From: Candidatus Omnitrophota bacterium
Lineage (GTDB): Bacteria > Omnitrophota > Omnitrophia > Omnitrophales > JACROU01
DNA length: 49,943 bases
Assembly: GCA_029261035.1 (NCBI GenBank)
Contig: JAJDCD010000012.1
Coordinates: 222,776 to 272,718 of the forward strand
Direction: 5' to 3'
Positions 10,336 through 47,412 of this stretch are shown piece by piece (position 1 is the first letter of the stretch; the number at the start of each line of letters is the position of its first letter). A model generated the notes under the pieces. The model made no database searches. It saw nothing but the letters and a program-made list of their open reading frames with translations, and was not told where the DNA came from. Position numbers and translations under genes: made by a program.

Positions 10336-10875
10336 CTAGGCTTTTAAAATAGTATCCATTTTTTGAAATAACAATTCTAATGTTGAAGAGTTGTCTATGT
10401 TGTAATTTGCCATTTGTATTGTTTCGTCAAGTTGCTGATCACTAGCCGTTTGACTTGATGCTTCATTTTCTTCTAAAGCGATAAACTCTTCTAAGGTCTG
10501 AGGATCCTTCTCCCGATTTCTTTGTCTCATCCGATCAAAACGGACTTCGCTGAGAGCCGTAACAGCCACTAATCTAAAATTAGGTAATTCCATTAACACT
10601 TTAACTTCTTCTGGATGACGAATGGAGTCAATAACACAATTTTTTTCTGAATCAACTTTTAACACAACTCTCTTAGCTAAAACTCCTGCACCTGCTTCTT
10701 TTCTTAAACGGTTTCCCAACTGAAACAAATTATCTCTGACAACAGGGATTGATTCTTCCATAGCGGCATCTCTCAAACAATCTGAGAGGGAAAAATAAAC
10801 AAAACCCTTCTCTTTTAAATACTCCGCAACAGCGCCTTTTCCAGAACCATTTTTTCCGGTTAATCCAATAATCAT
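10336..10875 (-). CDS. P-loop nucleotide kinase, dephospho-CoA-kinase/UPF0200-like
   Basis: A 179-residue soluble P-loop protein. Walker A is at residues 7-14 (GKNGSGKG). FVYFSLSDCLRDAA, CVIDSIRHPEEV and RFDRMRQRNREKDP are the substrate/lid elements seen in archaeal UPF0200 and deoxynucleotide or dephospho-CoA kinase relatives. The exact substrate is unknown. The ATG overlaps the tatD stop by 4 nt, implying coupling. Confidence 0.7.
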   Translation of the reverse strand: MIIGLTGKNGSGKGAVAEYLKEKGFVYFSLSDCLRDAAMEESIPVVRDNLFQLGNRLRKEAGAGVLAKRVVLKVDSEKNCVIDSIRHPEEVKVLMELPNFRLVAVTALSEVRFDRMRQRNREKDPQTLEEFIALEENEASSQTASDQQLDETIQMANYNIDNSSTLELLFQKMDTILKA

Positions 10876-11645
10876 AATGGCAGCCTTAAGACACTCTTTG
10901 CATTACTTAAAATCTGATCAGACAAAGCCTCACCTCCCATTCCATGAATCTGCTTCATCGTTTCAAAAGTCTCCATCATATAAAGAGTCTCATTTCTTTT
11001 TCCTCTTTTTGTCTGTGGGGGTAAATAAGGAGCATCTGTTTCAATCAACAAACGATCCAAAGGACAGTACTGACAAGCTTCCCTTAACTCATCGTTCTTT
11101 TTATAGGTTAAAGGCCCAGCAAACGAAATATGAAAACCAAGATCCAAACAACGTTTTAAAATATCTTTGTCCCCAGAAAAACAATGAAAGATCCCAGAAT
11201 AAGGCGCCTTACCATAATGGGTTACAATCTCCAACAAACGGTCAAAAGCGTCTCGACAATGAAATATCAAAGGCTTATCAATTTCAGAATAAAGCTCCAA
11301 AAACTGTTCTAGCACCTTCTCTTGAACTTCTTGAGGCGACATGTTCCTAAAAAAATCCAACCCCACTTCTCCAATAGCCACAACCTTAGGGTCTTTTAAA
11401 ATTTCTTTAATCTCATTCAAAACCGCTTCATTCACATCCTTGGCATCATGAGGATGCACCCCCGCAGTAGCAAATATATTTTCATACTTATTTGCCAACT
11501 CCTGCGATTGTTTAGAAGTCTCTACATCGGTACCCACATTAACAAAATAAGCAATCCCCGCCTCTTGAGCCCGCTCCATAATCTCCACACGCTCTTCCTT
11601 AAAATCCGGAAAGTTCAAATGCACATGCGTATCAATCAACCTCAT
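10872..11645 (-). CDS. tatD: TatD-family metal-dependent deoxyribonuclease
   Basis: A TIM-barrel hydrolase of 257 residues. Metal-ligand motifs are in order: DTHVHLNF at the N-terminus, AGVHPHDA, AIGEVGLDF, IFHCRDAF, FHCFSG and ETDAPYLPP. TatD enzymes are 3'-5' DNA/RNA exonucleases in repair and quality control. I chose the ATG at 11645, which has AAAGGA 6 nt upstream. The longer start at 11669 lies inside a heptad repeat and has no binding site. Four heptads end 18 nt before the chosen start. Confidence 0.93.
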   Translation of the reverse strand: MRLIDTHVHLNFPDFKEERVEIMERAQEAGIAYFVNVGTDVETSKQSQELANKYENIFATAGVHPHDAKDVNEAVLNEIKEILKDPKVVAIGEVGLDFFRNMSPQEVQEKVLEQFLELYSEIDKPLIFHCRDAFDRLLEIVTHYGKAPYSGIFHCFSGDKDILKRCLDLGFHISFAGPLTYKKNDELREACQYCPLDRLLIETDAPYLPPQTKRGKRNETLYMMETFETMKQIHGMGGEALSDQILSNAKSVLRLPL

Positions 11646-11662
11646 CAAAATTCCTTTGTTTA

Positions 11663-11690
11663 TAGCCATCAGCTTTTAGCTTTTAGCTAT
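11663..11690 (-). repeat. Four-unit heptad array just upstream of tatD
   Basis: Plus-strand units TAGCCAT, CAGCTTT, TAGCTTT, TAGCTAT, with AGC exactly every 7 nt. On the minus (sense) strand the array is followed by an AAAGGA ribosome binding site and the tatD ATG. The same arrangement precedes 41434, 47060 and 49798. Confidence 0.7.
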
Positions 11691-11769: not shown

Positions 11770-11978
11770 GTTTCGTTATGAATAGCATAACGAAACACCC
11801 TAAACTCCAGAAAGAATATGGGCTCGATGCCCATCTTCTTTCAACGCCTCAACACCCAACAAGCGTTCATAACTTAAAGGAAAATATTGCATCCCCGCCG
11901 CGAGTTCACAAAAGGGACAGTCACCGTAGGTGACAGTCCCTTTTGTGCTGTCTGAGCGCCGGGGATGCAATATTTTCC
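11770..11978. repeat. Three-hairpin structured element, copy A
   Basis: H1 is GTTTCGTTATG/CATAACGAAAC (11770-11796). H2 (11810-11842) has arms GAAAGAA/TTCTTTC and TGGGC/GCCCA closing on loop TCGAT. H3 (11879-11978) has an 18-bp perfect outer stem, then GCCGC/GCGCC with a C-C mismatch, then the asymmetric loop GAGTT (11902-11906) opposite CTGTCTGA (11948-11955), then an inner stem. The inner stem tip carries the GTGAC/GTCAC palindrome. It starts 18 nt after the metG stop and is upstream of tatD. The coding strand of the element is uncertain. No protein-coding content; the 300-nt gap is almost filled by this module. Confidence 0.8.
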
Positions 11979-18424: not shown

Positions 18425-18531
18425 GACTGTCACCAGGCTGCGATCAGCAGACCATGGTGACTGTCACTATTATGCTAAAAGAAAAATGACAGTCACATTC
18501 AACGATCTTTATAAATCCGGGTGACAGTCAC
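18425..18531. repeat. Cluster of GTGACWGTCAC palindromes after ileS
   Basis: Three copies lie at 18457-18467 (GTGACTGTCAC), 18486-18496 (one mismatch) and 18521-18531 (GTGACAGTCAC). The first pairs with GACTGTCACCA at 18425-18435 to make a hairpin with an inner CTGC/GCAG stem, just after the ileS stop. It could act as a transcription end, but no T-run follows. Confidence 0.7.
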
Positions 18532-18581
18532 TTTTAAAACCAAACGCGCGAAGCGACTCCTCTCAACAAAGGATGTCTAAT

Positions 18582-18736
18582 AAAATAAACAGGAGCTCGA
18601 TGTTCCTGTTTATTTTCACCCTCAACACCCCACAAGCTTTTGCATTCAAAACAAATGGGTATCCTCCGCCGCGAGTTCACAAAAATTGATTTTTATTTTT
18701 GTGCTGTCTGAGCGCCGGAGGATACCCATTTGTTTT
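18582..18736. repeat. Structured element, copy B (H2 and H3 only)
   Basis: H2 (18582-18616) is a 15-bp stem around loop TCGAT, with a stem sequence unlike copies A, C and D. H3 (18648-18736) has a 20-bp perfect outer stem and again GCCGC, loop GAGTT, loop CTGTCTGA and GCGCC. The linker retains CAACACCCCACAAGC. H1, the promoter-like pair and the heptads are missing. It lies between convergent ileS and the flippase gene, 19 nt after the flippase stop. The 332-nt gap holds only this and the palindrome cluster. Confidence 0.8.
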
Positions 18737-41521: not shown

Positions 41522-41563
41522 TCACTTAATCCTAATTCTCATAACATAACAACGAATGCTTTT

Positions 41564-41592
41564 ATCCCAGAGCACCACAAAATAGCTAACAA
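41564..41592 (-). promoter_or_regulatory. Promoter-like pair in module copy C
   Basis: Minus-strand TTGTTA (41587-41592), 17 nt, then TGGGAT (41564-41569) followed by AAAAGC. It matches copies A and D in spacing and in the GGGATnAAAG core, and lies about 130 nt upstream of the GT39-like gene. Confidence 0.35.
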
Positions 41593-41601
41593 CAAAAATG
41601 C

Positions 41602-41796
41602 GTTTCGTTATTTAATTAATAACGAAACACCCTAAACCCCAGAAACAATATGGGCTCGACGCCCATCTTGTTTCAACCCCCTACACACCCCACAAGCGTT
41701 CATAACTTAAAAGAAAATGCTGCATCCCCGCCGCGAGTTCACAAAAATCGCATTTCAATTTTTGTACTGTCTGAGCGCCGGGGATGCAGCATTTTC
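41602..41796. repeat. Three-hairpin structured element, copy C
   Basis: H1 41602-41628 (GTTTCGTTATT/AATAACGAAAC). H2 41642-41674 with arms GAAACAA/TTGTTTC and TGGGC/GCCCA and loop TCGAC. H3 41713-41796: a 17-bp outer stem, then GAGTT opposite CTGTCTGA, then CACAAAAAT/ATTTTTGTA. It lies between divergent glycosyltransferase genes. On the minus strand H1 is followed by GCATTTTT, terminator-like. The 420-nt gap holds this module and the promoter of the plus-strand gene. Confidence 0.8.
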
Positions 41797-41839
41797 CAAA
41801 CAAACCAAACCATTTTCCCCTACCCCAACATAAACCTTC

Positions 41840-47106: not shown

Positions 47107-47151
47107 TAGTATAAATCCTATTTCTATATCAACACCACCACCAACGCTTTT

Positions 47152-47180
47152 ATCCCTTAACTTACATAACTTCATGTCAA
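47152..47180 (-). promoter_or_regulatory. Promoter-like pair in module copy D
   Basis: Minus-strand TTGACA (47175-47180), a perfect -35, then 17 nt, then AGGGAT (47152-47157) and AAAAGC. Same spacing as copies A and C. About 92 nt before the purN start. Confidence 0.4.
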
Positions 47181-47190
47181 TAATATAAGC

Positions 47191-47379
47191 GTTTCGTTAT
47201 TTAGACAAATAACGAAACACGATAAACCCAGGCAATAAAAGTGCTCGATGTACTTTTGTTGCCAACCCTCTTCATCCCCACTAGTTTTTACAACTTTCAA
47301 GGAAAACAGTGTGCCCTCGCCGCGAGTTGCGCAGGCCAAAGGCCGAGCATGTCTGAGCGCCGAGGGCACACTGTTTTCC
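47191..47379. repeat. Three-hairpin structured element, copy D
   Basis: H1 47191-47218 (GTTTCGTTATTT/AAATAACGAAAC). H2 47231-47263: a 14-bp stem with two G-T pairs and loop TCGAT. H3 47301-47379: a 19-bp perfect outer stem of new sequence, GCCGC/GCGCC, loop GAGTT opposite ATGTCTGA, and a GC-rich inner stem GGCC-AAA-GGCC. The inner stem differs fully from the other copies while the internal loop stays. It lies 33 nt after the rsmI stop. The 350-nt gap is filled by the module. Confidence 0.8.
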
Positions 47380-47412
47380 GAACAACCACTATTTTTAATT
47401 ACGCCATTAAAT

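Follow-up and report, generated by a model that had tools for sequence, protein, structure and literature searches.

The metG-tatD interval and the H3 copies of the window

The window (the whole stretch of 49,943 nt analysed here, G000:C4:222776-272718) belongs to a genome, G000, of 2.70 Mb in 26 contigs. Near its left end the gene metG is followed, on the minus strand, by a tatD-like gene, and the interval between the two holds three hairpins, H1 to H3, the last of which has three further copies in the window. The features are listed below in window positions; the plus strand is the one on which the initial annotation described H3, and is called the reading strand.

10872 to 11669, minus strand: tatD-like gene downstream of metG
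11770 to 11796, plus strand: H1, a separate small hairpin GTTTCGTTAT..ATAACGAAAC in the repeat unit
11810 to 11842, plus strand: H2, a separate hairpin with a CTCGATG (CATCGAG) loop, in the same repeat unit as H3
11879 to 11901, plus strand: H3 copy A, outer left arm, ending in GCCGC; forms inverted repeat I1 with 11956-11978 (96% complementary)
11902 to 11906, plus strand: H3 copy A, GAGTT loop side (AACTC on the gene-sense strand)
11907 to 11948, plus strand: H3 copy A, inner hairpin CACAAAAGGGACAGTCACC..GGTGACAGTCCCTTTTGTGC, which differs among copies and holds a GTGACAGTCAC palindrome
11949 to 11955, plus strand: H3 copy A, TGTCTGA loop side (TCAGACA on the gene-sense strand)
11956 to 11978, plus strand: H3 copy A, outer right arm, which begins with GCGCC and ends some 20 nt short of the metG stop codon
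11997 to 13535, minus strand: metG (Pfam tRNA-synt_1g), with H3 copy A directly after its stop codon
18648 to 18736, plus strand: H3 copy B (GAGTT 18673-18677, TGTCTGA 18705-18711)
41710 to 41799, plus strand: H3 copy C (GAGTT 41735-41739, TGTCTGA 41768-41774)
47299 to 47381, plus strand: H3 copy D (GAGTT 47324-47328, TGTCTGA 47350-47356), inner stem GGCC-AAA-GGCC

Copy A (11879-11978) folds in the order outer arm, loop, inner hairpin, loop, outer arm, and the 256-nt stretch around it has folding z scores of -13.3 and -12.2 against shuffles on the two strands. The initial annotation had reported the GAGTT and TGTCTGA loop sides from every copy in the window, and both are present in four of four; the base immediately 5' of TGTCTGA is C in copies A to C and A in copy D. 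The GTGACAGTCAC palindrome of the copy A inner hairpin also occurs elsewhere in G000, and palindromic repeats of this type stand both alone (window ~18520-18532) and nested in H3 inner hairpins (11914-11944).

In 19 of 26 relatives metG overlaps its tatD neighbour or lies directly against it, while in G000 the two are approximately 327 bp apart (gene starts approximated from tblastn); the repeat unit was therefore inserted, or grew, at this place. In G000 the unit comprises H3, H2 and H1 and spans some 250-300 bp. A set of copies from other genomes (foreign copies, below) that was examined for this company has neither H2 nor H1, so within the unit the H3 module probably came first. Beyond H1, the stretch GCNTTTATCCC, which reads GGGATAAANGC on the gene-sense strand, is conserved in many G000 copies (window ~41555-41570 and ~47143-47158), with a TTTAGGATTTA stretch farther out.

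We counted positions relative to genes on the strand reading TCAGACA..AACTC, taking as genes the simple open reading frames called by a script. The adjoining gene has the same sense in 47 of 51 G000 copies, and a same-sense stop codon is found within 60 nt of the loop in 41 of 51, about 20 nt from the stem; an earlier tally with a different open reading frame limit gave the same picture. In most copies the gene-sense strand is the opposite of the reading strand. A Pfam scan of twenty adjoining genes assigned eighteen to unrelated enzymes or housekeeping functions and left two without a match.

Stems placed just 3' of stop codons could be ordinary intrinsic terminators whose tips share a loop by chance. 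We judge this very improbable, because a T-run is missing in most copies (7 of 49 G000 copies and 7 of 87 foreign copies have TTTT within 12 nt), the identical 12-base loop recurs across phyla, and the module separates genes whose counterparts in relatives overlap or abut. The same placement, shared by many foreign copies, and the folding z scores on both strands also speak for a 3'-UTR RNA element. In this explanation H3 would fold in the gene-sense transcript, a conserved enzyme or RNA-binding protein would bind its UCAGACA/AACUC loop and thereby define or protect the 3' end of the mRNA, and the arms would evolve by ordinary compensatory change. The scarcity of TTTT counts against this explanation as well, as does the finding on inspection that some copies precede gene starts in the opposite sense; we return to it with the arm mismatches.

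A fixed loop between free arms in G000

The pattern GAGTTN{18,48}TGTCTGAGC has 53 exact-loop matches in the 2.70 Mb of G000 (two overlap at one place), and the backwards-read control has none. Because such a pattern presupposes the loop, we left the loop free in a genome-wide search that combined the class-A inner stem CACAAAA..TTTTGTG with any 8 or any 5 bases. The initial annotation had named free variation of the loop in other copies as the observation that would speak against it; what this search returned was TGTCTGA in 34 of 35 copies (the sole variant being TGTTTGA at C3:5834) and AACTC, the equivalent of GAGTT, in 35 of 36 matches; the remaining one (C24:277937) does not resemble H3. 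One place, C16:621451, matched with the AACTC side alone, so the opposite side must differ there, and a near-miss scan of the fetched loci gave the same lone loop variant again. The invariance of the H3 loop is real and well beyond chance. The fixed core exceeds the loop, since the fourth pair from it is a conserved mismatch in 44 of 52 G000 copies (C-C on the reading strand, G-G on the gene-sense strand), and the G-G mismatch is also present in 52 of 87 foreign copies; the invariant core thus consists of the TCAGACA/AACTC loop, two or three G-C pairs and, usually, the G-G mismatch.

Around the loop, the variable inner stem of the initial annotation is borne out: the helices vary freely between copies and are self-complementary within each copy. 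For the outer arms we compared the 52 G000 copies with both arms (one copy at a contig end was dropped, and one with unpaired arms was dropped before a different tally). The two arms of the same copy pair at 91.0% of 22 positions, against 62.2% for arms taken from different copies; the copy's own partner is best or joint best in 49 of 52 cases, all 52 arm pairs are different, and the highest mean among 2000 random arm pairings is 67.3%.

Tandem G-A pairs beside the GC stem, which had been suggested as a possibility, can form on the reading strand and on that strand only, which in most copies is not the gene-sense strand. A kink-turn has a 3-nt bulge beside tandem G-A pairs, with no loop bases on the opposite strand; on inspection the layout of the H3 loop differs (3 bases face 5 after the possible G-A pairs), and we dropped this assignment. 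Comparison with Rfam had also been proposed: run on the window with Rfam 15 at gathering and relaxed thresholds, it gave a tRNA elsewhere in the window as the only match above threshold, and none to H3 above a family threshold, which counts against a 3'-UTR RNA element. Text searches on the core letters, on Omnitrophica noncoding RNA motifs and on palindromic repeats with conserved loops found no published description of the H3 core in the portions of text that they returned.

Occurrence in other bacteria and a permuted form

The exact pattern is present in 7 of 58 Omnitrophota genomes, G000 counted, and a scan of GTDB genomes gave at least 114 stretches with it. The fetched loci, genomic and viral, contain 161 pattern matches; in 29 of them the outer arms pair at 14 or more of 20 positions, and the remainder are largely chance. 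By record titles, these 29 come from Coriobacteriia, other Actinobacteria, Omnitrophota, Eisenbacteria, Planctomycetaceae, Vicinamibacteraceae and one untitled bin, so that at least these groups carry the module. Further, 28 of the 34 genomes behind the chosen loci match, with at most 20 matches per genome, and the reversed control gave 1 match. These counts are inflated by orthologous copies, which are not independent, and many of the genomes are incomplete assemblies. The copy at L119 (Candidatus Omnitrophota, as is L109) has the same sequence as that of G041, a relative of the same order.

Foreign copies have the same loop within unrelated arms that are each self-complementary (mean pairwise identity of the 5' arms, 37%), and their inner hairpins have the preferred forms GTCCTCG..CTGCGG and GCTTG..CAAG. 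Inverted pairs of modules lie about 100 bp apart in Coriobacteria. Nested modules, with one TCAGACA/AACTC hairpin in the stem of another, were seen at L180, L393, L394 and L398 and in G068. In the viral collection 39 stretches match the pattern, but in none are more than 13 of 20 arm positions paired, and a longer core is absent there; phage records gave weak partial matches, and a plasmid search for the H3-type core gave weak matches, many of them inside coding sequence.

A permuted, inside-out form, AACTC-GC-TNC-GC-TCAGACA, in which the opposite helix is closed, was found at 6 places in Ilyobacter, 2 in Aureibacter and 1 in Parabacteroides (reversed control, 0) and in 7 viral stretches, and in none of the 58 Omnitrophota genomes; a Variovorax record holds a variant with TCAAACA. 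These hairpins have the same two loop strands as H3, with flanking G-C pairs, but the loop is closed on its opposite side, and the elements are longer, several with a GTTACTTTTC..GAAAAGTAACC side hairpin. That the same two strands face each other in both topologies suggests that the duplex-embedded loop itself matters. The permuted elements L375, L376, L377 and L379-L387 sit in longer hairpins, several of which have that side hairpin and a recurrent TTCTTAACGC stretch.

Proposed arm rewriting and known kinds of element

Mismatch and mirror-extension counts were restricted to copies with arms of 14 or more. From pair 5 outward, the arm mismatches comprise 39 G-U and 68 A-C in 87 foreign copies and 19 G-U and 17 A-C in 49 G000 copies, compared with 20 G-U and 5 A-C in terminator-like control hairpins of the same loci (n = 33). 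There is thus no G-U excess among arm mismatches on either strand, which speaks against selection for RNA pairing, because such selection would favour G-U on the gene-sense strand. The strand bias of the mismatches shifts with the definition of the arms, from 40 A-C and 8 G-U in one count to 40 and 35 from pair 10. We had considered the reading strand as the folded strand on the basis of the former count (made on the other strand) and dropped this idea: the bias arises partly from a recurrent mismatch at pair 9, and with longer arms it is gone from pair 10 (40 versus 35, and 5 versus 6 in an added set).

Tested against shuffles of each copy's own flank, 12 of 81 foreign copies have in-register mirror symmetry that continues outward of the arms (p <= 0.01; 0.8 copies expected), and at least seven of these 12 extensions cross the stop codon that ends an open frame of at least 180 codons (L103, L177 twice, L253, L308, L400 and L408). 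The last two are flanked by convergent GC-rich genes, and codon rhythm could therefore add mirror matches there. In a swapped-flank control, 11 of 63 copies lie above the 99th percentile for mirror extension; among G000 copies, 0 of 47 have an extension beyond the arms. At L314 and L256, which passed the shuffle test under the first arm definition and stand outside the 12 of 81, some fifteen codons from the end of the gene reappear, diverged, as a mirror copy past the hairpin. More than 30 nt out, mirror symmetry is weak (z of about 1 to 3) as a mean over 223 foreign pattern matches that include chance ones.

Orthologous sites in Coriobacteria record how the arms change. Matched two-sided changes in place are seen at L307, L313 and L323 and at L308 and L314. 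One site follows a gene whose protein is 91-96% identical. Here three genomes have the same core in unrelated arms, G061 has a decayed loop (TCGGACA/ACCTC) and decayed arms beside a second kind of hairpin, three further genomes have the core of that second kind in unrelated, nearly perfect arms, the site is empty-like in G067, and one more genome is without any hairpin. The empty-like G067 ortholog speaks, like the metG-tatD gap, for insertion, but it has no counterpart of the arm sequences and so lends no support to copying from the target at that site. The second fixed core, GCACGCAGGA..TCCTGCTNRGC, was found in L431, L432, L434 and L435, at the site of the TCAGACA module, and L441 (G065) has a very long, near-perfect hairpin of GTGACA-like repeats after the orthologous gene.

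The compensated changes in orthologous arms, and the two topologies, which are natural for an internal-loop module, are further points for the 3'-UTR RNA element introduced above; with the gene-sense strand free of a G-U excess, we nevertheless regard that explanation as doubtful. The initial annotation took the fixed loop for a recognised module, and this part of its reading is strengthened by an invariant asymmetric loop between free helices, across phyla and in two topologies. Variable helices, however, need not mean an RNA under selection for pairing, because there is no G-U excess and some copies are longer inverted duplications that run into the neighbouring gene.

The reading that we prefer, and to which we give roughly even credence, is that H3 is a dispersed REP-like palindromic element, its loop held by selection and its arms written or repaired by DNA-level reverse-complement copying. 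The arms would be written and repaired at the hairpin itself, by template switching during replication, and such copying would explain perfect yet unrelated arms, the lack of a G-U excess and the mirror symmetry that runs into adjacent coding sequence. Template switching can create and mend stems in a single event (PMC8794818); the hairpins of that account resemble H3 in having perfect stems, which one round of reverse-complement copying makes or repairs, but they are described there for RNA genes, whereas the H3 core recurs at many sites in several phyla. The core may be fixed because a putative nucleic-acid-binding factor recognises the loop, and the likeliest effect on the host would be a stable mRNA 3' end or a transcription boundary. 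Besides the missing extensions in G000, the G067 ortholog, the convergent genes at L400 and L408 and the shifting strand bias, two further points count against this explanation: the orientation bias toward stop codons is strong, so generic template switching is not the full account, and neither a mobilising enzyme nor a loop-binding factor was identified.

REP elements are the nearest known kind. REP, BIME and REPIN sequences (GTAG and CGTC families) are extragenic, dispersed palindromes reported in several phyla, mostly downstream of genes and sometimes in inverted pairs, and the CGTC family is said to be without a dedicated transposase (PMC3733652). H3 is likewise extragenic, multi-copy and mostly 3' of genes; REPs, however, have short stems of family sequence with an unpaired GTAG or CGTC foot, and in H3 the internal loop region alone is fixed, between arms that are free and longer. 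At the feet of H3 (TCAGACA strand and GAGTT strand, respectively), GTAG was found in 0 and 1 of 47 G000 copies and 0 and 6 of 84 foreign copies, and CGTC in 9 and 0 of 47 and 10 and 6 of 84, so that most copies have neither tag. The arms are unrelated between copies, and no stem sequence is shared by the family. The RAYT/Y1 transposase (PF01797) was rejected as a required partner: 9 of the 25 genomes with the module lack it (these absences are weakened by assembly gaps, as several of the genomes are incomplete), and 0 of 30 Y1 loci have an armed module (one chance pairing was seen).

The attC sites of integrons are located after stop codons and have the boxes RYYYAAC and GTTRRRY at their two feet. 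They invite the explanation that H3 is single-strand DNA folded into a target of a recombinase or transposase (attC-like or REP/RAYT-like), an enzyme that would read the bulged hairpin and not the arm sequence. The dispersal of the copies, the inverted pairs in Coriobacteria, the longer metG-tatD gap of G000 and the freedom of arm sequence all suit such a site, but the Y1 results above do not, Y1 being present also in 25 of 29 genomes chosen as without the exact pattern, and attC-type boxes at both feet occur in 0 of 47 G000 and 0 of 84 foreign copies; we consider this explanation unlikely. Sites of the attC type conserve structure and not sequence (PMC2727003). This is a likeness to H3, as is the position after stop codons; unlike attC, H3 lacks paired boxes at its feet, its neighbours are unrelated housekeeping genes, and its fixed part is near the tip and not at the base.

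A 3'-end RNA role fits the position of H3, and a folded-DNA recognition site fits its dispersal. More broadly, we put forward tentatively, as possible and short of probable, that this 12-base asymmetric internal loop is nearly the sole fixed part of the element, in several phyla and both topologies, because a widespread putative factor recognises it while the arms keep being overwritten with reverse complements of neighbouring DNA. With the loop fixed across phyla and the stems free, H3 offers a natural case that separates a recognised structure from its carrier sequence, and makes testable both what binds the loop and how frequently replication rewrites arms in one step. It also cautions against taking strong stem covariation in bacterial intergenic regions as proof of selection on an RNA.

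The H2 hairpin of the G000 unit forms a family of its own, with a CATCGAG-type loop and 36 distinct instances in the fetched loci; its arms are likewise compensated (8 G-U versus 7 A-C mismatches), and an H2-like hairpin, GGGACATTGAGTCCC, follows metG in G007 (L300).
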